This document shows positions 47,973 through 58,284 of a stretch of DNA of 64,000 nucleotides, piece by piece. The translations under genes were made by a program, and so were the position numbers. The DNA lies in assembly GCF_005771405.1 (NCBI RefSeq), contig NZ_VAUA01000008.1, positions 62,001-126,000 on the forward strand, read 5' to 3'. The DNA comes from Parasedimentitalea maritima (lineage in GTDB: Bacteria > Pseudomonadota > Alphaproteobacteria > Rhodobacterales > Rhodobacteraceae). The notes under the pieces were generated by a model. It saw only the letters and a program-made list of their open reading frames with translations. It was not told the DNA's origin and searched no databases. Position 1 is the first letter of the stretch. Each line of letters opens with the position of its first letter.

Positions 47973-49031
47973 TTAACTGGTTAGCTTAAAGCCTTCAATG
48001 AGCTGACGCAGGCCAATTGCAGCGCCGGCAAAAATTGCCAGGAAGGTAACTGGAGCCGATATCGACAGTACCGAAAATGCAGATAACCCCTGTCCAATCG
48101 TACAGCCCATGGCGACCACCGCACCCACGCCCATGATAGCGGCGCCAATGATCTGGCGGCGTAACTCACGCGGGTCATCGCAGGCTTCCCAGCGAAAATG
48201 ACCTTTGATCAATGATCCAACGAAGGCGCCGACCCAAACCCCTACGACCGATCCAACCGCAAAGGACAGCGGTCGCAGGCTGCCGGTCATGGTCCATAAG
48301 ATGGTTTCGCCCAATGGGGCTGAAAAAGAATGTGAGACAACCGGCAGGGCATCAAACCCGTTCAGGTGTATGTAATAGCTGCCAGCCCAACCCGTAACGA
48401 CGGCAACCCCAACCACGACCGACCAGAATATCGCGCTATAATCTTGGCGGAATTCAGCATTTGAGAGAGCGGCGATGACAATTGCAATACCGGCGCTGAT
48501 ACCAAGTCCGGCCAGAGGTAAACCGGTCAAGGCTGCCACATGGTGGATCAGGCCAGGTGGCAATTCGGATGTGACGGATTCTTGCAAGAATAGGTAATTG
48601 CGCAGAGGTGCCAAAGGGCCAGTTAAAGCAACATAGGTGGAAACACCCATCACCAATACAATGACAAAGCTGCGGAGATCTCCTCCGCCTAGGCGAGCAA
48701 TTGCTCCATATCCACAGTTGCCGGACAGCGCCATGCCGTAGCCGAACATCAGACCACCTAAGATCGAGGCGGCAGGCATCCAGCGGATTGACAGGTAGAA
48801 GGTTTCAGTTTCGTCTAACAGTCCCTGACTGATCAAAGAAAAGCTGCCGATTACGGCCACACCAATTGCAAGGACCCACATTCGCATACGCAAGCTGGAT
48901 CCGCCGTATAACAGATCTTCGATCGCACCCAGAGTGCAGAACCGACCCAGTCGTGCTGCAAGGCCCAGCAAAAGGCCACCAGTCAAACCAATAATGGCAA
49001 CGGTTTGACTGTCAGTCAGGAAATCCAGCAT
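47973..49031 (-). CDS. soxT: YeeE/YedE family sulfur transporter (SoxT-like)
   Basis: A 352-aa polytopic membrane protein of the YeeE/YedE (TsuA/PmpAB) family, which moves thiosulfate or sulfur-containing groups. Conserved cysteines are in LGRFCTLGAIED, SGNCGYGAIARLGGG and GCTIGQGLSA. Start: ATG at 49031 (MLDFLTDSQ), since a longer frame runs into the divergent kinase gene. Homologues in other sox clusters are called SoxT. Likely supplies a cytoplasmic signal or imports sulfur for assimilation; direction is not shown by the sequence. Confidence 0.85.
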   Translation of the reverse strand: MLDFLTDSQTVAIIGLTGGLLLGLAARLGRFCTLGAIEDLLYGGSSLRMRMWVLAIGVAVIGSFSLISQGLLDETETFYLSIRWMPAASILGGLMFGYGMALSGNCGYGAIARLGGGDLRSFVIVLVMGVSTYVALTGPLAPLRNYLFLQESVTSELPPGLIHHVAALTGLPLAGLGISAGIAIVIAALSNAEFRQDYSAIFWSVVVGVAVVTGWAGSYYIHLNGFDALPVVSHSFSAPLGETILWTMTGSLRPLSFAVGSVVGVWVGAFVGSLIKGHFRWEACDDPRELRRQIIGAAIMGVGAVVAMGCTIGQGLSAFSVLSISAPVTFLAIFAGAAIGLRQLIEGFKLTS

Positions 49032-49115
49032 GGACGGGTTCCCCCAGTAGGTGCCAAAGTCATATCTAAGCACATAGTGCATTTTTTGAATGTTTGTTTG
49101 CAAGGTAGAGTTTTG

Positions 49116-50015
49116 ATGGATGACGGAATTGATGTCGAACACAGGCAAGTCAGGGCCCTTATCGATGATCAATTCCCCCAATTTAGCGGATTGTCTATTG
49201 AGGCAATCCAGCCCGGAGGCTGGAACAACCGCAGTTTTCGACTAGGTGAGGGCTATGTGGTGCGTATGCCGTCGGCGAAGCGATATGAACCGCAGATCAA
49301 ACGTGAAAAACTGGGGCTATGTCGGCTGACTTCCCAACCGTCGGTTCGGTTGCCACGCTATTATGCTATGGGGCGGGCTGGGCATGGATATCCCTATTCG
49401 TGGTCCATTTTGCATTGGGTGGAAGGTACTCCAATTGACGCTACCGCGATGATTACAGATCCGGTTCTGGCGCGCGACCTTGGTCAATATCTCGGTAAGC
49501 TGCAGCAGAGCCCTACACCAAGTGGTCTGCTGCCGCCCGGCGTTGATAACTTTTACCGAGGCGGAGATCTGCGAGTTTACGAAACTGAGACCCTGTCGGC
49601 CTTGGACCAACTTAAGACAGAGTGTCAGAGCAGCTTTTTACGGATCTGGGAGCAGGCCCTGACCAGCTCTTGGCAAACCCCACCTGTTTGGGTGCATGGC
49701 GATGTTGCACCCGGGAATCTGCTGACTACTAAGGGGCGCCTGACTGGCGCTGTTGATTTCGGTTTGATGGCGGTAGGCGATCCAGCTTGTGATCTGGTGA
49801 TTGCCTGGGCGCATCTGGACAAAACTTGCCGCAAAGAGTTTGCGTCGACTTTACCACTAGGGCTGGCCTGCTGGCAGCGCGCTATGGGGTGGGCATTGTG
49901 GAAAGCCGCGATTGTTCTGGCCGGAGAGGCCGCCCCTGCGGAGCAGACGGCTGTGGCCAAACGGGTTCTGGATCTGCTGTCCGAGGATCAGTCGTTTTTG
50001 CAGAACAATTCATAG
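49116..50015 (+). CDS. Aminoglycoside phosphotransferase (APH)-fold kinase
   Basis: A 299-aa small-molecule kinase of the APH family. The Brenner motif is WVHGDVAPGNLL and the Mg-binding motif VDFGLMAVGDPACDL; the N-terminal lobe has GGWNNRSFRLGEGYVVRMP. It resembles environmental APH-like kinases more than known resistance enzymes. ATG at 49116 follows AAGGTAGAG. It lies between soxT and soxR, on the opposite strand to both, overlapping the soxR end by 28 nt. Substrate unknown. Confidence 0.82.
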   Translation: MDDGIDVEHRQVRALIDDQFPQFSGLSIEAIQPGGWNNRSFRLGEGYVVRMPSAKRYEPQIKREKLGLCRLTSQPSVRLPRYYAMGRAGHGYPYSWSILHWVEGTPIDATAMITDPVLARDLGQYLGKLQQSPTPSGLLPPGVDNFYRGGDLRVYETETLSALDQLKTECQSSFLRIWEQALTSSWQTPPVWVHGDVAPGNLLTTKGRLTGAVDFGLMAVGDPACDLVIAWAHLDKTCRKEFASTLPLGLACWQRAMGWALWKAAIVLAGEAAPAEQTAVAKRVLDLLSEDQSFLQNNS

Positions 50016-50323
50016 ACCACTTCAAGAATACGCCGAGGGCGTTCATCTGCCAGCCTATAGTAGATCACTTTGCCGTCGCGGCGGGGAATCACCAATCCCT
50101 CGAGTCGCAACCGCGACAGTTGTTGCGAGACGGCGGCCTGACGGGCCGACAGCAAATCTTCCAGCTCGGTGACTGATTTCTCGCCTGTTACCAGATGGCA
50201 CAGGATCATCAAACGGCCTTCGTGGCTGATCGCCTTCAAAAAATTGGAGGCCAGAGTTGCATTATCGACCATGGCGTCCAATTCGTCCGAAGCCATATCA
50301 GAGGAAAACTGAGGTAGTGCCAT
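49988..50323 (-). CDS. soxR: ArsR-family sulfur-responsive repressor
   Basis: A 111-aa winged-helix repressor. HTH: SVTELEDLLSARQAAVSQQLSRLRLEGLV. Two cysteines, Cys42 (MILCHLV) and Cys108 (ELFCKND), fit the pair that forms a polysulfide bridge in SqrR/BigR proteins. In Paracoccus- and Pseudaminobacter-type clusters SoxR represses sox genes until reduced sulfur is sensed. It follows soxS by 57 bp on the same strand. AAGGAG precedes the ATG. It is unrelated to the redox regulator SoxR of E. coli. Confidence 0.93.
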   Translation of the reverse strand: MALPQFSSDMASDELDAMVDNATLASNFLKAISHEGRLMILCHLVTGEKSVTELEDLLSARQAAVSQQLSRLRLEGLVIPRRDGKVIYYRLADERPRRILEVVYELFCKND

Positions 50324-50380: not shown

Positions 50381-50794
50381 TTAGCTGCCGGGATCCGTGG
50401 GCGTTGCATCCTCTGCAACGTACCCGGCATGTTTACTTAACAACTGAGCGATCACCGGCCAAAAGAAATCTTCGCCTGGATAGCCTTCCAGTCGGCCAAT
50501 TTCACGTTGATCTTCGACAATCAAGAATGTTGGGGTGAAGTTAACCCGGCGAGCAACGTCCAGTTCACCGGGCAGATCGCGCAGATTTATCCGCCGCAGG
50601 GGCGCAAAGCGGCCTTCACTGGTTTTGGGATAGATTGGGCCGATCTCCTCGTCCCAGCGTGCGCACCACTCACAGTTAGGTTGTTCTACCATCACCAATT
50701 CCGCAGCTTGAACGGGCAGGGTAAACAGTATCCCTGCAGCCATTGCTGCGGTTAATGCTCGACGGGTGGTCGAGAGAACACTTGGAAAGACCAT
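50381..50794 (-). CDS. soxS: Periplasmic thioredoxin-like protein SoxS
   Basis: A 137-aa exported thioredoxin-fold protein with a signal peptide (about 1-30, ending LPVQA) and active site PNC41EWC44. FTPTFLIVEDQ holds the cis-proline. In Paracoccus SoxS keeps the carrier SoxY active by reducing it, with electrons from SoxV. Start at 50794 (MVFPSVLS); an upstream ATG would read into the operator. It is first in the soxSR unit and divergent from soxV. Confidence 0.9.
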   Translation of the reverse strand: MVFPSVLSTTRRALTAAMAAGILFTLPVQAAELVMVEQPNCEWCARWDEEIGPIYPKTSEGRFAPLRRINLRDLPGELDVARRVNFTPTFLIVEDQREIGRLEGYPGEDFFWPVIAQLLSKHAGYVAEDATPTDPGS

Positions 50795-50836: not shown

Positions 50837-50852
50837 ATTTGAATATGTGAAT
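50837..50852. promoter_or_regulatory. Candidate SoxR operator, soxS/soxV
   Basis: ATTTGAATATGTGAAT fits ATTC-N8-GAAT except for T at position 4. It is central in the 109-bp divergent soxS-soxV promoter, so one repressor dimer could control both directions. Confidence 0.65.
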
Positions 50853-50903
50853 AATGCAAGCTGCCTCACGTCTCTATTGGGTGGTCATTCGAGGAAACCC
50901 GAC

Positions 50904-51641
50904 ATGCTGGAAATTACCCTGCTTGGCGCATTGTTCGCCGGTTTACTTAGCTTTTTTACGCCCTGCGTGCTGCCAATGGTCCCGTTTTACCTGTCTTACA
51001 TGGGGGGGCTTACAGTGGGCGAGTTGCGTGATGATGGCGGGATCGCACCGGGGGCACAGCGGCGGTTATTGGTGTCGGCGATTAGCTTTGCGGCCGGGGT
51101 TACCAGTGTCTTTATGCTGCTGGGTATGGGGGCTTCTGCGCTGGGCCAGTTGTTTGGACAGTATTTAGATTCGCTGATTTATGTGGCTGCTGCAATTCTT
51201 TTGGTATTTGGTCTTCACTTTCTGGGCGTGATTAAGGTGCCGGTTCTGTACCGGGAGGCGCGCCTTGAGAGTCGCAGGCAGGCCACAACGGTTGTTGGGG
51301 CCTATATGATGGGATTGGCGTTTGGCTTTGGTTGGACGCCATGTGTGGGGCCCGCATTGGCGGCAATCTTGATGATTGCATCAGGGCTGGGTGATATCTG
51401 GCGTGGCGCTTTGCTGCTGATGGTCTATGGAATCGGAATGACCTCTCCCTTTGTTCTGGCTGCGTTGTTCGCGCGACCATTTTTAGCTTGGGCGTCCCGT
51501 CATCGCAGCTTGGTCGTCATGGTGGAAAAGGCGATGGGCGCGATGCTGATTCTCTTTGCGGTGCTTATTGTTACTGGTGGCGTTCAGTGGATTGCTTATG
51601 CCTTATTGGGCTGGTTGCCGGGTGCTTCCACGCTGGGGTGA
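50904..51641 (+). CDS. soxV: CcdA-family membrane thiol transporter SoxV
   Basis: A 245-aa protein with six membrane helices and the two conserved cysteines Cys21 (FFTPCVLP) and Cys147 (GWTPCVGP) of CcdA. It passes electrons from cytoplasmic thioredoxin to periplasmic SoxS (or SoxW where present). Start: ATG at 50904 with GAGGAAA upstream. No soxW follows, so SoxS is the only local partner. Confidence 0.93.
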   Translation: MLEITLLGALFAGLLSFFTPCVLPMVPFYLSYMGGLTVGELRDDGGIAPGAQRRLLVSAISFAAGVTSVFMLLGMGASALGQLFGQYLDSLIYVAAAILLVFGLHFLGVIKVPVLYREARLESRRQATTVVGAYMMGLAFGFGWTPCVGPALAAILMIASGLGDIWRGALLLMVYGIGMTSPFVLAALFARPFLAWASRHRSLVVMVEKAMGAMLILFAVLIVTGGVQWIAYALLGWLPGASTLG

Positions 51642-51700
51642 GCACAGTTCCGTCGCGTTACTGTTACCAGCGTTGATGTTTTTGTGAACAGTTCGAACCA

Positions 51701-51716
51701 ATTCGAATTTGTGAAT
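51701..51716. promoter_or_regulatory. Candidate SoxR operator, soxX
   Basis: ATTCGAATTTGTGAAT is a full ATTC-N8-GAAT match, 85 bp upstream of the soxX ATG in the 159-bp gap after soxV. Corresponds in place to the second SoxR site known in Paracoccus (before soxX). Confidence 0.75.
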
Positions 51717-51800
51717 TTGTTGTTGCCTTCTAGCCTATCGGTAGCCTACGGTATGCAAAGCTAAGCACGTCAGACAGCGTGGCAGCTAACGGGAGGAACT

Positions 51801-52277
51801 ATGAAACTTACATCTCTGACTTTGGCTGCGGCCCTTATTGGCGGCGCAGCATTGGCCGGCGAAGTAGCGCCGAAAGACGTTCAGTACGACGAATCTGGTG
51901 CGGTTGCAGCGTCGCTGACCGGCGGAGCTGGCGATGCCATGAATGGCGCCATGCTTGCAGGCACCAAATCCAAGGGCAACTGCGTAGCATGCCATGCCAT
52001 CACCGCATTGGCTGATGTGCCATTCCACGGTGAAGTAGGCCCCTCGCTTGACGGTGCTGGAGAGCGCTGGAGCGAAGCGGAACTGCGTGGTTTGCTAACC
52101 GATGCCAAAATGACATTCGACGGTACTGTAATGCCTGCCTTCTACAAGGTGGATGGCTTCACCCGTCCAGGCAACGCTTATACCGGCAAAGCTGCTGAAG
52201 AGGCGCTGACGCCGATCCTGTCGGCGCAAGAGATCGAAGATGTCATCGCCTTTTTGGCGACACTAAAAGAAGAGTGA
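51801..52277 (+). CDS. soxX: Sulfur oxidation c-type cytochrome SoxX
   Basis: A 158-aa periplasmic monoheme cytochrome: signal peptide ending at GGAALAG, heme site C61VACH65 and likely axial Met111 in TVMPAFYK. With SoxA it forms the SoxAX enzyme that attaches thiosulfate oxidatively to the SoxY cysteine. GGGAGGAA precedes the ATG. First of soxXYZA. Confidence 0.95.
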   Translation: MKLTSLTLAAALIGGAALAGEVAPKDVQYDESGAVAASLTGGAGDAMNGAMLAGTKSKGNCVACHAITALADVPFHGEVGPSLDGAGERWSEAELRGLLTDAKMTFDGTVMPAFYKVDGFTRPGNAYTGKAAEEALTPILSAQEIEDVIAFLATLKEE

Positions 52278-52327
52278 TACACTAGGGGTCCCCCTACAGC
52301 CTCTAATATTTCCAAAGGAGAGAGAAT

Positions 52328-52744
52328 ATGGAATTCTCACGTCGCGACACCCTGGCTCTGGGCCTGGGCGCAGCGGTAGTTACCGTGCTGCCATTCAGCG
52401 TTAATGCTGCAGCCGATGACGTCATCGCCACCTTCACTGGTGGCGCCGATATGGGTGATGCCGGTATCGATTTGACCGCACCTGAAATCGCAGAAAACGG
52501 CAACACTGTTCCCGTTGAAGTCAGCGCACCAGGCGCCAGCGCCATCTTGCTGGTCGCAACTGGTAACCCAACACCGGGCGTTGCTCAGTTCAACTTCGGT
52601 CCTATGGCCGGTTCGCAATCAGCCTCTACCCGGATCCGTCTGGCCGGTACTCAGGATGTTGTTGCAATCGCCAAATTGGCAGATGGCTCTTTTGCCAAAG
52701 CCAGCTCGACCGTGAAAGTGACCATCGGGGGCTGTGGCGGCTGA
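52328..52744 (+). CDS. soxY: Thiosulfate oxidation carrier protein SoxY
   Basis: A 138-aa exported carrier with a Tat signal (FSRRDTLALGLGA) and the C-terminal swinging-arm motif GGCGG, with Cys136 holding the sulfur intermediates during the Sox cycle. It forms a heterodimer with SoxZ. AAAGGAGAG lies 8 nt before the ATG. Confidence 0.96.
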   Translation: MEFSRRDTLALGLGAAVVTVLPFSVNAAADDVIATFTGGADMGDAGIDLTAPEIAENGNTVPVEVSAPGASAILLVATGNPTPGVAQFNFGPMAGSQSASTRIRLAGTQDVVAIAKLADGSFAKASSTVKVTIGGCGG

Positions 52745-52785
52745 TCGCCGTCCAGTCACAGATCCCGAATTAAGGAGAATTAGAT

Positions 52786-53115
52786 ATGGCATCCGGTGTA
52801 AAACCCCGCGTCAAGGTCCCCAAAAAGGCCGCAGCTGGTGATGTTATCACCATCAAGTCCCTGATCAGCCACAAAATGGAAAGTGGTCAGCGCAAGGACA
52901 AAGAGGGCAACCTCATCCCGCGTTCGATCATCAACCGTTTCACGGTTGAGTTTAACGGTCAGTCTGTTCTGGACATGACTATGGAACCGGCAATTTCGAC
53001 CAACCCTTACGTTCAGTTCGAGGCAACAGTGCCCGAGGCCGGTGACTTTGTGTTCACTTGGTATGACGATGACGGATCGGTCTACGACACTACGAAATCT
53101 GTCGCAATCGGCTGA
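52786..53115 (+). CDS. soxZ: Thiosulfate oxidation carrier complex protein SoxZ
   Basis: A 109-aa all-beta protein without a signal peptide, exported with SoxY by hitchhiking on its Tat signal. KPRVKVPKKAAAGDVITIKSLI-like opening, SHKMESGQRKD and FNGQSVLDM are SoxZ features. AAGGAGAA precedes the ATG. Confidence 0.96.
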   Translation: MASGVKPRVKVPKKAAAGDVITIKSLISHKMESGQRKDKEGNLIPRSIINRFTVEFNGQSVLDMTMEPAISTNPYVQFEATVPEAGDFVFTWYDDDGSVYDTTKSVAIG

Positions 53116-53142
53116 TTTCGCGGCTCAGGGAGGACTACGTAT

Positions 53143-54003
53143 ATGACAAAGCCAATGGGGAAAACCCTCACAGCCATCGCTCTGGCAGCCGTTGCTTTCG
53201 GCTCAGTTGCCAGCGCAGACGAGACCGCCGAACTGGTTGTCAATGGTGACCTGAACATGGTCACCCGGACAGCTGCACCAGCGCACCTGTCCGATGTTCT
53301 GGACGAAATCAACTCGGGCTGGCTCTACCGTAAGGATGAGACCCAGTCGTTGCAGACTGACGATTTCGACAATCCGGGCATGATCTTTGTTGATCTGGCG
53401 CAGGACGAGTGGGACACTGTTGAAGGAACTGAAGACAAATCCTGTGCATCGTGCCACGACGATGTCGAAGACTCGATGAAAGGTGTCCGCGCTGTCTATC
53501 CCAAGTGGAACGAAACAGCCGGCGAAGTTCGTACACTGGCCATGCAGATCAACGACTGCCGTGTGAACCAGATGGGCGCTGACAAGTGGAAGTACACTGG
53601 TGGCGATATGGCAGGTATGGAGGCGCTGATCTCAGTTCAGTCACGCGGCATGCCGGTTGATGTTGCCATCGATGGCCCTGCTCAGTCGACTTGGGAAGAG
53701 GGTAAAGAGATGTACTATACCCGTACTGGTCAGCTGGACCTGTCCTGCGCCAACTGTCACGAGGAAAACTATGGCAACATGATCCGCGCCGACCACTTGT
53801 CGCAGGGGCAGATCAACGGTTTCCCAACCTACCGTTTGAAAAACGCCAAGCTGAACACCTCGCATGCTCGCTTTAAGGGCTGTGTCCGTGATACACGTGC
53901 AGAAACATACAAACCTGGTTCTTCAGAGTTTGTTGCGCTTGAGCTCTATGTTGCTTCACGCGGCAATGGTCTCTCGGTCGAAGCACCAGCGGTTCGTAAC
54001 TAA
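53143..54003 (+). CDS. soxA: Sulfur oxidation c-type cytochrome SoxA (diheme)
   Basis: A 286-aa periplasmic cytochrome with two heme sites, C101ASCH105 and C202ANCH206, signal peptide to about residue 25, Cys139 as likely axial ligand of the first heme, and Cys247 in FKGCVRDTRAE as the persulfide active-site residue. It is the catalytic subunit of SoxAX. GGGAGGA lies before the ATG. A hairpin follows. Confidence 0.96.
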   Translation: MTKPMGKTLTAIALAAVAFGSVASADETAELVVNGDLNMVTRTAAPAHLSDVLDEINSGWLYRKDETQSLQTDDFDNPGMIFVDLAQDEWDTVEGTEDKSCASCHDDVEDSMKGVRAVYPKWNETAGEVRTLAMQINDCRVNQMGADKWKYTGGDMAGMEALISVQSRGMPVDVAIDGPAQSTWEEGKEMYYTRTGQLDLSCANCHEENYGNMIRADHLSQGQINGFPTYRLKNAKLNTSHARFKGCVRDTRAETYKPGSSEFVALELYVASRGNGLSVEAPAVRN

Positions 54004-54010
54004 AACACCT

Positions 54011-54041
54011 TACCCCGCGTTCCAATTTGGGATGCGGGGTA
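54011..54041 (+). terminator. Hairpin between soxA and soxB
   Basis: TACCCCGC and GCGGGGTA pair around a 15-nt loop right after the soxA stop, followed by a pyrimidine stretch (TCCTCCTCTT). It is likely a partial terminator or mRNA-stabilising stem between soxXYZA and soxB. Confidence 0.55.
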
Positions 54042-54057
54042 TCCTCCTCTTATCAAT

Positions 54058-54073
54058 ATTCACACATGCGAAT
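54058..54073. promoter_or_regulatory. Candidate SoxR operator, soxB
   Basis: ATTCACACATGCGAAT is a full ATTC-N8-GAAT match flanked by AT steps, 34 bp before the soxB ATG and just after the soxA hairpin. This implies a separate promoter for soxB. Confidence 0.75.
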
Positions 54074-54106
54074 ATGTAGCTTGTGTTAAAGTGAAGGCAG
54101 ATCCCC

Positions 54107-55810
54107 ATGATCTCACGTCGTGATTTTCTTCAGGTCTCAATGGCGGCTTCGGCCATGGTTGGTGCTTCGGGCTTTGGCAATTGGTCACGTCTTGCGGCGC
54201 AACAATCGCTGACACAGGATCAACTGCTTCAGTTTGACATCTACGGTAACGTTAGCCTGATCCATGTCACAGACATACACGGCCAGCTAAACCCGATTTA
54301 TTTCCGCGAGCCTTCGGTCAACATGGGGATCGGGGCCGCCAATGGTCAGATGCCACATATTACCGGTGCAGATTTCCGCAAAGCCTATGGAATCGCTGAT
54401 GGTTCGCCTTCGGCTTATGCGCTGACCTATGATGACTTTTCCGCATTGGCACAGTCCTATGGCCGCGTTGGAGGGCTGGATCGCGTCTCAACCGTTATCA
54501 ACTCTATCCGGGCGGAACGGCCTGACGCATTGTTGTTAGACGGTGGTGACACATGGCACGGCTCGTACACCTGTTACAAAACCGAAGGCCAGGACATGGT
54601 CAACGTTATGAACGCGCTTAAGCCAGACGCAATGACCTTTCACTGGGAATTCACGTTGGGGTCCGAGCGGGTCAACCAAATCGTCGAAGAGCTGCCGTTT
54701 GTCGCATTGGGGCAAAATATCTTTGATGCCGAGTGGGATGAACCTGCCGAGCTGTTCAAGCCGTACAAATTCTATGAGACTGGCGGTGTGAAGGTGGCGG
54801 TGATTGGTCAGGCCTTCCCCTATATGCCAATTGCCAACCCGGGCTGGATGTTCCCGGAATATTCGTTCGGTATCCGTGACGAGAATATGCAAAAGATGGT
54901 CGATGAGGTCCGTGCCAAAGGGGCTGAATGTGTCGTGGTGCTGTCTCACAACGGTTTTGACGTCGATAAGAAAATGGCAGGCGTTGTCAACGGTATTGAT
55001 GTGATCCTGTCAGGTCATACCCATGACGCGTTGCCCGAGCCAGTGCTCGTTGGTCAAACCGTGATTGTGGCCTCTGGCTCCAATGGCAAATTCGTATCCC
55101 GGGTTGATCTCGACATTCGCGATGGCAAGATGATGGGCTATAAACACAAGCTGATCCCTATTTTTGCAGATGTCATTGCGCCAGACGCCACTGTAACCAA
55201 ATTGATCGAAGAGCAGCGGGCGCCTTACAAGGCGGACCTGGAAGAGGTGATTGGCCATACGGACGATGACTCGCTGCTGTATCGTCGCGGCAACTTCAAT
55301 GGTACGTGGGACGACCTGATCTGTGACGCACTGATGTCCGAACGTGAGGCGGATATTGCCATGTCGCCGGGCGTACGCTGGGGGCCATCGATCCTGCCGG
55401 GACAGGCGATTACACGCGAGGACATCTTTAACGTTACGTCGATGTCTTATGGCGAGGCCTATCGTACCGAAATGACCGGTGAGTTTATTCATGTCATTCT
55501 GGAAGACGTGGCTGACAACCTGTTCAATCCGGATCCTTACTACCAGCAGGGTGGTGATATGGTCCGTGTAGGGGGGCTCGGTTATCGCATCGATGTGACC
55601 AAACCGCAGGGCGATCGCATCACCGAGATGACGCTGCTGAAAACCGGTGAAAAAATTGACCCATCCAAGACCTACACTGTAGCGGGCTGGGCCAGCGTTA
55701 ACGAAGACACTGAAGGTCCCCAGATCTGGGATGTGGTTGAAAACCACATCAGGAAACTCGGCACCATTTCAACTGTTCCCAATACCTCGGTTCAAGTCGA
55801 AGGCATCTAA
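54107..55810 (+). CDS. soxB: Sulfate thiol esterase SoxB
   Basis: A 567-aa periplasmic dimanganese hydrolase that releases sulfate from SoxY-bound sulfonate. Tat signal ISRRDFLQVSMAAS; metal-binding motifs HVTDIHGQL, LDGGDTWHGS, LSHNGFDVD and SGHTHDALPEP. The C-terminal 5'-nucleotidase-like domain is present. Length is usual for SoxB. It appears to have its own operator and is followed by a terminator. Confidence 0.96.
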   Translation: MISRRDFLQVSMAASAMVGASGFGNWSRLAAQQSLTQDQLLQFDIYGNVSLIHVTDIHGQLNPIYFREPSVNMGIGAANGQMPHITGADFRKAYGIADGSPSAYALTYDDFSALAQSYGRVGGLDRVSTVINSIRAERPDALLLDGGDTWHGSYTCYKTEGQDMVNVMNALKPDAMTFHWEFTLGSERVNQIVEELPFVALGQNIFDAEWDEPAELFKPYKFYETGGVKVAVIGQAFPYMPIANPGWMFPEYSFGIRDENMQKMVDEVRAKGAECVVVLSHNGFDVDKKMAGVVNGIDVILSGHTHDALPEPVLVGQTVIVASGSNGKFVSRVDLDIRDGKMMGYKHKLIPIFADVIAPDATVTKLIEEQRAPYKADLEEVIGHTDDDSLLYRRGNFNGTWDDLICDALMSEREADIAMSPGVRWGPSILPGQAITREDIFNVTSMSYGEAYRTEMTGEFIHVILEDVADNLFNPDPYYQQGGDMVRVGGLGYRIDVTKPQGDRITEMTLLKTGEKIDPSKTYTVAGWASVNEDTEGPQIWDVVENHIRKLGTISTVPNTSVQVEGI

Positions 55811-55820
55811 CCTCACTTTG

Positions 55821-55866
55821 ACCGGGGTGCTTTGCCGCGCCCCGGTTAATCAATGATTTTTTTTAC
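55821..55866 (+). terminator. Rho-independent-type terminator after soxB
   Basis: ACCGGGG and CCCCGGT pair around a 12-nt loop, followed after about 10 nt by an eight-T run. It separates soxB from soxCD. Confidence 0.7.
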
Positions 55867-55874
55867 CCTCACGA

Positions 55875-55890
55875 ATTCACACATGTGAAT
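55875..55890. promoter_or_regulatory. Candidate SoxR operator, soxC
   Basis: ATTCACACATGTGAAT is the best dyad of the four: with one flanking base each side, the arms AATTCACA and TGTGAATT are perfectly complementary. It lies 28 bp before the soxC ATG, overlapping where a -35/-10 would fall. Confidence 0.8.
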
Positions 55891-55917: not shown

Positions 55918-57189
55918 ATGAGTGATAGCTCCAAACACAATTCTCCATCGCGCCGTCAGTTCCTAACTGGTGCGGCTGCTGCAGGGGCAGGGGCTGTGGC
56001 GGCGGGTGCTGCCAAGGCAGCTGGTCCTGACCCGCTGATCACAGAAGTTCAGGATTGGGCTTCGTCTTTTGGTGATGGCGTTGATGTAACGCCATATGGC
56101 CTGCCAATCCAGTTCGAGCAGGACGTGGTACGGCGCAACGTGGAGTGGCTGACCGCCGATACTATTTCGTCGATCAACTTTACACCAATCCACGCACTGG
56201 ACGGCACCATTACGCCGCAAGGGTGTGCATTTGAGCGCCATCACTCGGGCGCAATCGAGATGCGTAAAGAAGACTACCGCCTGATGATCAATGGCTTGGT
56301 AGATCAGGAATTGGTGTTCACTTACGAGGATCTGGAACGGTTCCCACGGGAAAACCACGTTTACTTCTGTGAATGTGCTGCCAACACCGGCATGGAGTGG
56401 GCAGGGGCCCAGTTGAATGGGGCGCAGTTCACGCACGGTATGATCCACAACATGGAATATACCGGCGTATCGCTGCGGACCTTGTTGGAAGAGGCGGGCG
56501 TCAAACCAGAAGGTAAGTGGATCTATGTCGAAGGAGCGGATGCCTCGTCGAATGGCCGCTCAATCCCGTTGGAAAAGGCTCTGGATGATGTGCTTGTCGC
56601 GTTTAAGGCCAACGGCGAAGCTCTGCGCAAGGAACACGGATACCCCGTGCGCTTGGTTGTACCGGGCTGGGAAGGCAACATGTGGATCAAGTGGCTCCGC
56701 CGTATCGAGGTCAAGGATGCTCCGGTGGAAAGTCGCGAAGAAACCAGCAAATACACAGACAATCTCGCCAATGGCATCGCGCGCAAATGGACCTGGGTTA
56801 TGGATGCCAAGTCCATCATCACCTCGCCCAGCCCACAAGCGCCGATCAAACACGGGACAGGTCCGCTGGTTATCACTGGCCTGGCCTGGTCTGGGAACGG
56901 GGCTATCACTGGCGTTGATGTTTCAGTTGACGGTGGCAAGAACTGGATCGAGGCTCGTCTGGCTGCCCCAGGACAGGACAAGGCGATGAGCCGGTTCTAT
57001 CTGGATCACAATTGGGACGGTACGGAAATGTTCCTACAGGCCCGCGCCAAGGATGCTACCGGATATGTACAGCCAACCAAAACCCAGCTGCGCGACGTGC
57101 GCGGTCTGAACTCTATCTACCATAACAATTGCATCCAGACCTGGTGGGTCAAGGAAAGCGGAGAGGCCGAAAATGTCGAAGTATCATAA
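55918..57189 (+). CDS. soxC: Sulfane dehydrogenase molybdoprotein SoxC
   Basis: A 423-aa Tat-exported (SRRQFLTGAAA) molybdenum enzyme of the sulfite oxidase family. CECAANTG (151-158) holds the cysteine expected to ligate molybdenum. SoxC with SoxD oxidises the sulfane sulfur left on SoxY, releasing six electrons, so thiosulfate can go fully to sulfate. AAGGAGG lies before the ATG. It overlaps soxD by 17 nt. Confidence 0.96.
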   Translation: MSDSSKHNSPSRRQFLTGAAAAGAGAVAAGAAKAAGPDPLITEVQDWASSFGDGVDVTPYGLPIQFEQDVVRRNVEWLTADTISSINFTPIHALDGTITPQGCAFERHHSGAIEMRKEDYRLMINGLVDQELVFTYEDLERFPRENHVYFCECAANTGMEWAGAQLNGAQFTHGMIHNMEYTGVSLRTLLEEAGVKPEGKWIYVEGADASSNGRSIPLEKALDDVLVAFKANGEALRKEHGYPVRLVVPGWEGNMWIKWLRRIEVKDAPVESREETSKYTDNLANGIARKWTWVMDAKSIITSPSPQAPIKHGTGPLVITGLAWSGNGAITGVDVSVDGGKNWIEARLAAPGQDKAMSRFYLDHNWDGTEMFLQARAKDATGYVQPTKTQLRDVRGLNSIYHNNCIQTWWVKESGEAENVEVS

Positions 57190-58225
57190 GCTTACCGTTG
57201 TCGCCTCACTGATGACATTACTTGCAGCACCAGCTTATTCCGAGGCCTATGGTTTGGGCCGCCCGGCGTTGCCAGAAGAAGTTGCTGCTTGGGATTTGGA
57301 TGTTAGCCCTGATGGCACCGGCCTTCCCGCAGGGTCGGGATCTGTTCTGGATGGAGAAGAGATCTTTGCCGAACAATGTGCTGTTTGCCATGGTGACTTT
57401 GCCGAAGGTGTTGGGAACTGGCCAAAACTAGCTGGTGGGGCAGGGACGCTGGACCACGAGGATCCGCTGAAAACCGTTGGGTCTTACTGGCCCTATCTGT
57501 CGACCACATGGGACTACGTGAACCGGTCAATGCCGTTCGGCAATGCGCAGTCGCTTGAGCCGGACGAGGTCTATGCCATTGTTGCCTACATCCTGTATTC
57601 CAACGATCTGGTGGATGAGGATTTTGTATTGAACAAGGATAACTTCCTTGAGGTCGAAATGCCTAACGCTGGTGGCTTTATCTTGGATGACCGAGCTGAA
57701 GCGGAGTATGTAAATTTCAACGATGCTTGCATGACCAATTGTAAGGACAGCGTAGAAATCACCATGCGCGCACTGGTACTCGATGTAACGCCCGAAGAAA
57801 CCGCTGCCAAATCCGGTACAGTAGCCGAAGCCGAAGTCCAAGTGACTGAAGCCGCTGCTCAACAGCCTGTGCAAGAGCCCGTGGTCGAAACGGTCGCTTT
57901 AGACCCAGAACTGGTGGCCAAGGGCGCCAAGACGTTCAAAAAATGCAAAGCCTGTCATCAGGTTGGCGAAGGGGCCAAAAATCGAACAGGTCCAATTTTG
58001 AACGGCATCGTTGGCGCAACTGCAGGACAGGTCGACGGCTTCAAGTATTCCAAACCAATGATGGCTGCAGCCGAAAGTGGGCTGGTCTGGAACCAACAAG
58101 AACTGGCCGCTTTTTTAGCCAAACCCAAGAAATATATGAAGGGCACCAAGATGTCGTTCTCGGGGCTGAAAAAGGAAAAAGATATCGCGGCAATTCTCGC
58201 GTATCTGCAATCCGTTTCTCAGTAA
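57173..58225 (+). CDS. soxD: Diheme cytochrome c SoxD
   Basis: A 350-aa periplasmic cytochrome, electron-accepting subunit of sulfane dehydrogenase. Signal peptide to about residue 23; heme sites C69AVCH73 and C258KACH262. The two cytochrome domains are joined by an Ala/Pro/Glu/Val-rich linker (about 205-240); the C-terminal domain resembles class I cytochrome c2 with KYMKGTKMSF giving the axial Met. Last sox gene; no soxE or soxF follows. Confidence 0.95.
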   Translation: MSKYHKLTVVASLMTLLAAPAYSEAYGLGRPALPEEVAAWDLDVSPDGTGLPAGSGSVLDGEEIFAEQCAVCHGDFAEGVGNWPKLAGGAGTLDHEDPLKTVGSYWPYLSTTWDYVNRSMPFGNAQSLEPDEVYAIVAYILYSNDLVDEDFVLNKDNFLEVEMPNAGGFILDDRAEAEYVNFNDACMTNCKDSVEITMRALVLDVTPEETAAKSGTVAEAEVQVTEAAAQQPVQEPVVETVALDPELVAKGAKTFKKCKACHQVGEGAKNRTGPILNGIVGATAGQVDGFKYSKPMMAAAESGLVWNQQELAAFLAKPKKYMKGTKMSFSGLKKEKDIAAILAYLQSVSQ

Positions 58226-58255
58226 AGAGATCTAAGAGAGTAAATAAGAATACGA

Positions 58256-58284
58256 AAAGCCCCGAACCGCGTTCGGGGTTTTTC
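58256..58284 (+). terminator. Rho-independent terminator after soxD
   Basis: CCCCGAAC pairs with GTTCGGGG around CGC, preceded by AAAAG and followed by TTTTT. It ends the sox cluster. Confidence 0.92.

Follow-up and report, generated by a model that had tools for sequence, protein, structure and literature searches.

The usual model for the control of bacterial thiosulfate oxidation comes from Paracoccus and shows the sox genes as one operon with two repressor sites. Studies by Mandal in 2007 and Rother in 2005 reportedly placed the sox clusters of Pseudaminobacter salicylatoxidans and Paracoccus pantotrophus under the control of SoxR, a repressor of the sox genes whose gene is said to lie beside soxS and soxT, as it does in the locus described here. 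We analysed a 64,000-nucleotide stretch of the Parasedimentitalea maritima genome (contig NZ_VAUA01000008.1, positions 62,001 to 126,000; hereafter the window), whose sox cluster contains four copies of the palindrome ATTC-N8-GAAT. This motif was adopted from a preliminary description of the same DNA, and we take it to be the published SoxR operator. Comparison with related genomes suggests that the four sites are likely SoxR operators, each heading its own unit: the divergent soxRS and soxV, which would share one site, soxXYZA, soxB and soxCD.

When five intergenic probes were tested with the related SoxR of Hyphomicrobium denitrificans, the protein bound four of them, and polysulfide released it (PMC10451225); the mechanism described involves a sulfur bridge between two cysteines, with SoxT1B as signal unit (PMC10451225, PMC12423496, PMC11582611). 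As is predicted here for the window, H. denitrificans has several separate sulfur-oxidation promoters under an ArsR-type repressor with two conserved cysteines (PMC10451225, PMC12423496). However, its probes included the soxA-soxY gap and gaps of the sHdr region, whereas the predicted units of the window genome are soxSR/soxV, soxXYZA, soxB and soxCD plus the unlinked soxG and soxH, and inverted and direct repeats are described there in contrast to the one common palindrome of the window. SqrR is described as a sulfide/polysulfide-responsive regulator that, unlike the window SoxR, is not tied to a sox cluster. The listed titles and beginnings of abstracts, a scope outside which subscription papers and regulon databases fall, contained no report of Rhodobacterales SoxR operators before soxB, soxC, soxG or soxH. 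The ArsR/SoxR-controlled sox regulon as such is already known, and the arrangement in the window is a variant of it.

The four sites lie where the preliminary description had placed them, and the neighbouring genes named there are likewise borne out, although soxS and soxV are identified by weak or generic domain matches plus synteny:

50837..50852: predicted operator O1, ATTTGAATATGTGAAT, one mismatch to ATTC-N8-GAAT, between the divergent soxS (minus strand) and soxV (plus strand)
51701..51716: predicted operator O2, ATTCGAATTTGTGAAT, exact ATTC-N8-GAAT, 84 bp before soxX
54058..54073: predicted operator O3, ATTCACACATGCGAAT, exact ATTC-N8-GAAT, 33 bp before soxB
55875..55890: predicted operator O4, ATTCACACATGTGAAT, exact, with 7-bp arms and a 2-bp centre, 27 bp before soxC

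O1 is separated by 42 bp from the soxS ATG and by 51 bp from the soxV ATG. When one mismatch is allowed, the window contains 24 matches to ATTC-N8-GAAT versus 25.3 in shuffles, so that the loose pattern alone is no proof and the site at 50837, taken on its own, does not reach significance. Across the 4.85-Mb genome there are 48 exact matches, equivalent to about 0.63 per 64 kb, and simple arithmetic gives an expected number of about 0.005 for three exact sites within the four sox gaps, which together span approximately 485 bp. The reversed pattern, used as a control, has six exact matches in the genome, which is a rough guide only, as other codons are involved. A symmetric 22-base scoring matrix, for which only other genomes supplied the 56 exact soxX sites, ranked the sites at 51701, 55875 and 54058 first, second and third among all window positions (23.6, 22.7 and 17.8) and the site at 50837 sixth (8.2, with 12.6 for the top unrelated position). 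With all four within the top six, O1 to O4 belong to the palindrome type found before soxX in other species. Fifty of the 56 exact soxX sites form one alignment, the arms of which are invariant by construction because the sites were picked for exactness. Among the matches listed for the genome, only the soxC site is a perfect AATTCA-N6-TGAATT. A covariance model of the soxX site (sequence only) placed the soxC and soxX sites on top (E-values of 0.04 and 0.08); in this search, which scored 150 of 2124 genome candidates, a few weak others were listed, and the soxB and soxS-soxV sites were not.

All four sites are present in the window genome (G000) and in three further members of the genus (G001, G002 and G006). 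In an alignment of the four gaps from these species, the arm bases are identical at 32 of 32 positions (8/8 per site), and 222 of the 461 columns around the sites are invariant. As G000 and G001 are nearly identical, this four-species footprint in effect represents three lineages. The inner eight bases are kept at 7/8 positions in the soxS-soxV site, 8/8 in the soxX site, 2/8 in the soxB site and 5/8 in the soxC site, and the rest of the respective gaps at 47/93, 98/184, 46/90 and 31/94 positions. Nearly the whole site is thus kept at soxS-soxV and soxX; the soxB and soxC sites retain their arms, and their inner bases change. The preliminary description had suggested that differences in the two central bases and in the flanks may set different affinities; for the inner bases as evolved settings at soxB and soxC this finds no support, although they may still affect affinity. 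G003, G004, G005 and G007 contain a different version of the cluster, in which the soxX site is exact and the soxB site has one mismatch, and no site was found in their 37-39-bp soxB-soxC gap or in the 49-50 bp of the soxS-soxV gap examined. The genus harbours two sox cluster versions, whose soxX is either 83-99% or 43-47% identical to that of the window, which suggests replacement by horizontal transfer.

We further scanned the gaps of 80 Rhodobacterales sox loci, found by SoxB among at least 592 matches, for sites within one mismatch. The listed loci have such a site in 40 of 73 soxS-soxV gaps, 66 of 72 soxX gaps, 55 of 78 soxB gaps and 11 of 75 soxC gaps, versus 6.4, 5.8, 2.6 and 2.4, respectively, in base shuffles; two of the eleven soxC-gap matches (L049, L075) look like chance. 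The gaps between soxR and soxS (4/72), soxX and soxY (1/72), soxY and soxZ (0/75), soxZ and soxA (1/75) and soxC and soxD (1/41) are at background (3.1, 0.85, 1.15, 1.05 and 1.05 in shuffles). From these counts, an operator before soxB is common in the group and the operator before soxC is the unusual one. A second set of relatives, which includes the window genome itself, has the soxB site in 17 of 26 and the soxC site in 5 of 29 cases, with one soxB-gap match (G037) looking like chance. The two sets overlap (L011 and L092, for example, agree in the soxB site and what flanks it) and are not independent, and the counts ignore kinship. In one locus (L058, Jhaorihella thermophila), no soxC match follows soxB and the soxD-like match is only partial. 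The class of soxB sites in L005-L084 whose right arm is GCAT contains an additional palindrome that overlaps the first with an offset of 4 bp and is about equally strong (ACACATGCGCATGTGT in L007); the pair statistics are mixed.

Three Paracoccus species, P. pantotrophus (DSM 11072), P. denitrificans and P. versutus, lack an exact ATTC-N8-GAAT in their sox clusters. All three carry ATTTGAACATAGGAAT between soxS and soxV, a one-mismatch site with the same arms as the window site at 50837 but a weak matrix score (1.1-3.7), as well as a two-mismatch site before soxX (2.3-3.2), and nothing with up to two mismatches was found before soxB or soxC. This fits the contrast with Paracoccus drawn in the preliminary description, in which only soxV and soxX have sites there, with the reservation that these near-sites score weakly. 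The SoxR of these Paracoccus species is 59% identical to that of the window, and soxG and soxH come after the operon there, whereas they are unlinked in the window genome. In Rhodobacter sp. CZR27, no site was found in the soxS-soxV, soxB and soxC gaps, and a two-mismatch match precedes soxX. In Paracoccus sp. SMMA_5_TC, the interval from soxR to soxX contains a site within one mismatch, and a two-mismatch site precedes soxB. A locus binned as 'Paracoccus haematequi' (L067) encodes a SoxR 79% identical to that of the window versus 59% in three named Paracoccus plasmids, which may reflect transfer or wrong binning.

Further exact sites before unlinked sox genes emerged from the genome-wide motif scan that the preliminary description had proposed. 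One (C1:702191) lies 40 bp before a gene with a metallo-beta-lactamase fold (PF00753), whose homologue in P. pantotrophus (303 amino acids, 50% identical) directly follows a flavoprotein gene in the position of soxF, and which is therefore named soxG. Another (C12:144836) lies 25 bp before a 317-amino-acid gene that is 70% identical to the P. pantotrophus gene next after the soxG homologue, and is named soxH; the P. pantotrophus gene order F-G-H and the protein sizes are presumed here. A classification of SoxG as a lactonase was rejected (NCBIfam AidB, 151.6 versus a cut-off of 360). A soxG homologue was identified in 37 of the 80 listed loci, with an exact site in 25 and a site within one mismatch in 29; the relatives set gave 15 of 22 exact and 18 of 22 within one mismatch, and 13 of 17 exact at an identity of at least 46%. 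Stand-alone soxH homologues (those with no soxG match in the fetched stretch) that are at least 67% identical have an exact site in eight of nine cases and a one-mismatch site in the ninth, whereas none of the eight soxH genes located behind soxG has a site within 200 bp. As soxH has the site only when parted from soxG, the operators tend to go with whichever gene leads a unit. The count of four in the preliminary description is thus too low for the genome, which contains six predicted sox operators. With the same operator before the unlinked soxG and soxH, the regulon would comprise at least six controlled starts.

An automatic open reading frame scan distributed the 48 exact genome sites over the window (three), ten further entries (L126-L135) and 35 others (L166-L200), 31 of the latter lying inside open reading frames of at least 200 codons. 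Seven exact sites not associated with sox genes lie outside long reading frames (L127, L129, L130, L179, L185, L187 and L200). One exact, high-scoring site (C21:215486, score 16.2), located 7 bp upstream of a DsbA/isomerase-like gene start, was considered as a target and dropped. G001, whose copy of the gene is 97% identical, retains the site, G005 (84%) does not, and the gene was not found at an E-value of at most 1e-40 in five other members of the genus.

soxA and soxB are each followed by a strong hairpin, a further hairpin follows soxD, and a promoter-like element is located directly downstream of O2:

51717..51754, plus strand: promoter-like element TTGTTGTTGC ... CTACGGTAT, the putative -35 and -10 elements
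54011..54041, plus strand: terminator- or attenuator-like hairpin after soxA, folding free energy (dG) -24.6 (50-nt stretch), z -6.3
55818..55864, plus strand: hairpin after soxB, stem 55818-55849 and eight T at 55857-55864 (7 bases later), z -5.9
58254..58284, plus strand: hairpin after soxD, the likely cluster terminator, z -4.1

The inverted repeat after soxD was recovered by a pattern scan for terminators on the minus strand only. A hairpin with a dG of -12 kcal/mol or below is present in the soxA-soxB gap of all 78 listed loci, followed within 12 bases by at least five T in 37 of 55 gaps with a site and in 9 of 23 without. In the soxB-soxC gaps of scannable length (16 of 75 were excluded as too short or too long), such a hairpin occurs in 10 of 10 gaps with a site and in 16 of 49 without, with T tails in two and one of these gaps, respectively. 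Over all 75 soxB-soxC gaps, the median length is 91 bp with a site (n=11, one of 3.8 kb) and 29.5 bp without (n=64). Each of the ten bases of TTGTTGTTGC, which immediately follows the soxX site, is common to 76-98% of the 66 soxX loci, and CTACGGTAT or a similar sequence is found by eye about 17 bases past the last TTG hexamer, suggesting a promoter whose -35 element abuts the operator. The soxB and soxC operators lie so close to their start codons (33 and 27 bp) that they must overlap the promoters, if promoters exist. At least half of 40 exact soxG sites are accompanied by CTTG and, about 17 bases downstream of it, by CATATT, the latter extending into the operator; this arrangement is not evident before the soxG of the window genome itself.

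The cluster comprises the following genes:

47973..49181, minus strand: soxT-like YeeE/YedE sulfur transporter (PF04143)
49988..50323, minus strand: soxR, ArsR/SmtB repressor with Cys42 and Cys108 (profile and structure-chain matches)
50381..50794, minus strand: soxS, thioredoxin-like (weak Thioredoxin_2 match below cut-off, and synteny; reading frame open upstream to 50869)
50904..51641, plus strand: soxV, CcdA/DsbD-like (domain match and synteny; not followed by soxW here)
51801..52277, plus strand: soxX (TIGR04485)
52328..52744, plus strand: soxY (TIGR04488)
52786..53115, plus strand: soxZ (TIGR04490)
53143..54003, plus strand: soxA (TIGR04484)
54107..55810, plus strand: soxB (TIGR04486)
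55918..57189, plus strand: soxC (TIGR04555)
57173..58225, plus strand: soxD, c-type cytochrome (generic cytochrome matches; named by synteny)

NCBIfam places SoxX, SoxY, SoxZ, SoxA, SoxB and SoxC above cut-off. SoxR belongs to the ArsR/SmtB family (PF01022 and NF033788 above cut-off, and ArsR matches in PDB); its nearest solved chains are 13ct and 6o8k-6o8o (E-value 2e-36), which we take to be SqrR of Rhodobacter capsulatus, and it scores 92.8 bits against the BigR model NF040642 (curated cut-off 155) and is thus not classed as BigR. Both cysteines are present in 70 of 73 listed loci; of the others, one has a cysteine replaced and two are without that part of the alignment. The soxX site occurs in 65 of 69 listed loci whose SoxR is at least 66% identical to that of the window and in one of four below 66%, which is in line with repressor and operator diverging together, a relation confounded by descent. 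In the window, soxR adjoins soxS and the YeeE-type soxT at the sox cluster, with a phosphotransferase-like gene between soxT and soxR. This gene (49110-50015, aminoglycoside phosphotransferase fold, PF01636) is present in the window genome and G001 and was not found in the stretches fetched from six other members of the genus. No soxW is located between soxV and soxX (51641-51801, approximately 160 bp) in the window genome and three sister species; in most of the 80 listed loci this gap is several-fold longer, and in annotated Ruegeria and Rhodobacter records it contains a thioredoxin-family gene. Furthermore, the window genome encodes a second BigR/SqrR-type ArsR protein (C1:617837-618142, within C1:617834-618160) that is 55% identical to SoxR and retains both cysteines; its gene adjoins an enolase-superfamily-like gene.

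We hypothesize that, when no oxidisable sulfur is available, a SoxR dimer would occupy each palindrome and block the respective promoter. Sulfur species reaching the cytoplasm, probably via the YeeE-type SoxT, would then lead to a sulfur bridge between Cys42 and Cys108 that loosens SoxR, so that the units switch on together. The hairpins after soxA and soxB would end or weaken read-through, for which reason soxB and soxCD would need regulated promoters of their own. The proposal of the preliminary description that soxB and soxC each have their own repressor site stands insofar as both sites are of the soxX type, are kept in four species and follow a strong hairpin, and the binding of SoxR to them is a prediction. 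It does not hold, however, that the soxB site is particular to this genome, as it is found in 55 of 78 listed loci and only the soxC site is restricted to a lineage.

Several observations weigh against separate SoxR-controlled units. In the window, the strong hairpins lack canonical tails, the T tract being absent after the soxA hairpin and displaced after the soxB hairpin, and a pattern scan for terminators (10 matches versus 8.0 expected) contained neither of them. The sigma-70 scan gave a single promoter-like match, at the soxC operator, versus 5.2 expected, and is thus at or below chance. The soxX operator precedes the promoter-like element, which is unusual for a repressor site. Across the listed loci, 23 of 78 soxA-soxB gaps have a hairpin and no site, the right arm is GCAT and not GAAT in 33 of 55 soxB sites, and the 'P. 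haematequi' locus L067 carries an exact soxX site and a one-mismatch soxC site. Matches in the soxC gap occur in 7 of 19 loci without a soxB site versus 4 of 55 with one (Fisher p 0.005, kinship ignored), and as they are mostly found where the soxB site is absent, the sites appear to turn over and not to add up. No site within one mismatch precedes 8 of 37 soxG homologues in the listed loci and 4 of 22 in the relatives, nor the stand-alone soxH homologues of 57% (n=1) and 35-40% identity (n=5). Finally, the window genome and G001 carry the second BigR-type paralogue, which could share the sites.

Part of this evidence would also fit a cluster in which the sites are real SoxR operators but soxXYZABCD is mainly one transcript from soxX, the sites at soxB and soxC being secondary as roadblocks or minor internal promoters. 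We regard this as unlikely, although not negligible: it accords with the lack of a clear promoter consensus at soxB, with the sole listed match at soxC in a scan below chance overall, with a soxA hairpin that has no clean U tract and with the presumed one-operon organisation of Paracoccus, whereas the strong hairpins at both junctions, the T-rich continuation of the soxA-soxB hairpin in most gaps with a site and the restriction of the soxH site to genes heading a unit argue for separate units. The sites could alternatively be read, wholly or in part, by the second ArsR protein, in analogy to Hyphomicrobium, where SoxR and sHdrR have sites in common and sHdrR bound all four SoxR-bound fragments in vitro (PMC12423496). 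The 55% identical paralogue with both cysteines makes this conceivable; however, no second family match besides the cluster SoxR was found at an E-value of at most 1e-15 in G002, G004 and G006, and G006 (96% complete) and G002 (only 85% complete) nevertheless have all four sites, which favours SoxR as the reader. In addition, none of the 48 exact genome sites is at the gene of the paralogue itself, and a role for this protein seems rather improbable. That the palindromes before soxB and soxC reflect RNA structure or chance, for example as hairpin stems or AT-rich promoter parts, and are not repressor sites is very improbable. The background frequency of the one-mismatch pattern in the window and the soxB sites with a second palindrome shifted by 4 bp could be taken that way, but the exact sites in the sox gaps and their matrix ranks, the arms kept in four species with variable inner bases at soxB and soxC, and the recurrence of the site before the unlinked soxG and soxH contradict it.

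The reading of the four sites as SoxR operators of separate units, which is the core of the preliminary description, is therefore well supported by comparison at the sequence level, with six predicted operators in the genome, and thus a wider regulon than first described, and a soxB site that is general in the group and less special than it had appeared. For Rhodobacterales as a whole, it is about as likely as not that a sox gene leading its own transcript (soxB after a terminator, in some lineages soxC, soxG, and soxH when parted from soxG) tends to carry the site, so that the operon could be divided into up to six co-regulated pieces with its control kept; the strengths of the sites could then set the induction levels of SoxB, SoxCD, SoxG and SoxH. 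One operator per unit would make it testable whether the break-up of an operon changes enzyme ratios, for example that of SoxCD. The motif provides a sequence handle with which putative SoxR targets, soxG and soxH among them, can be sought in genomes of Rhodobacterales, and the loci with and without individual sites offer a natural series for the gain and loss of operators.

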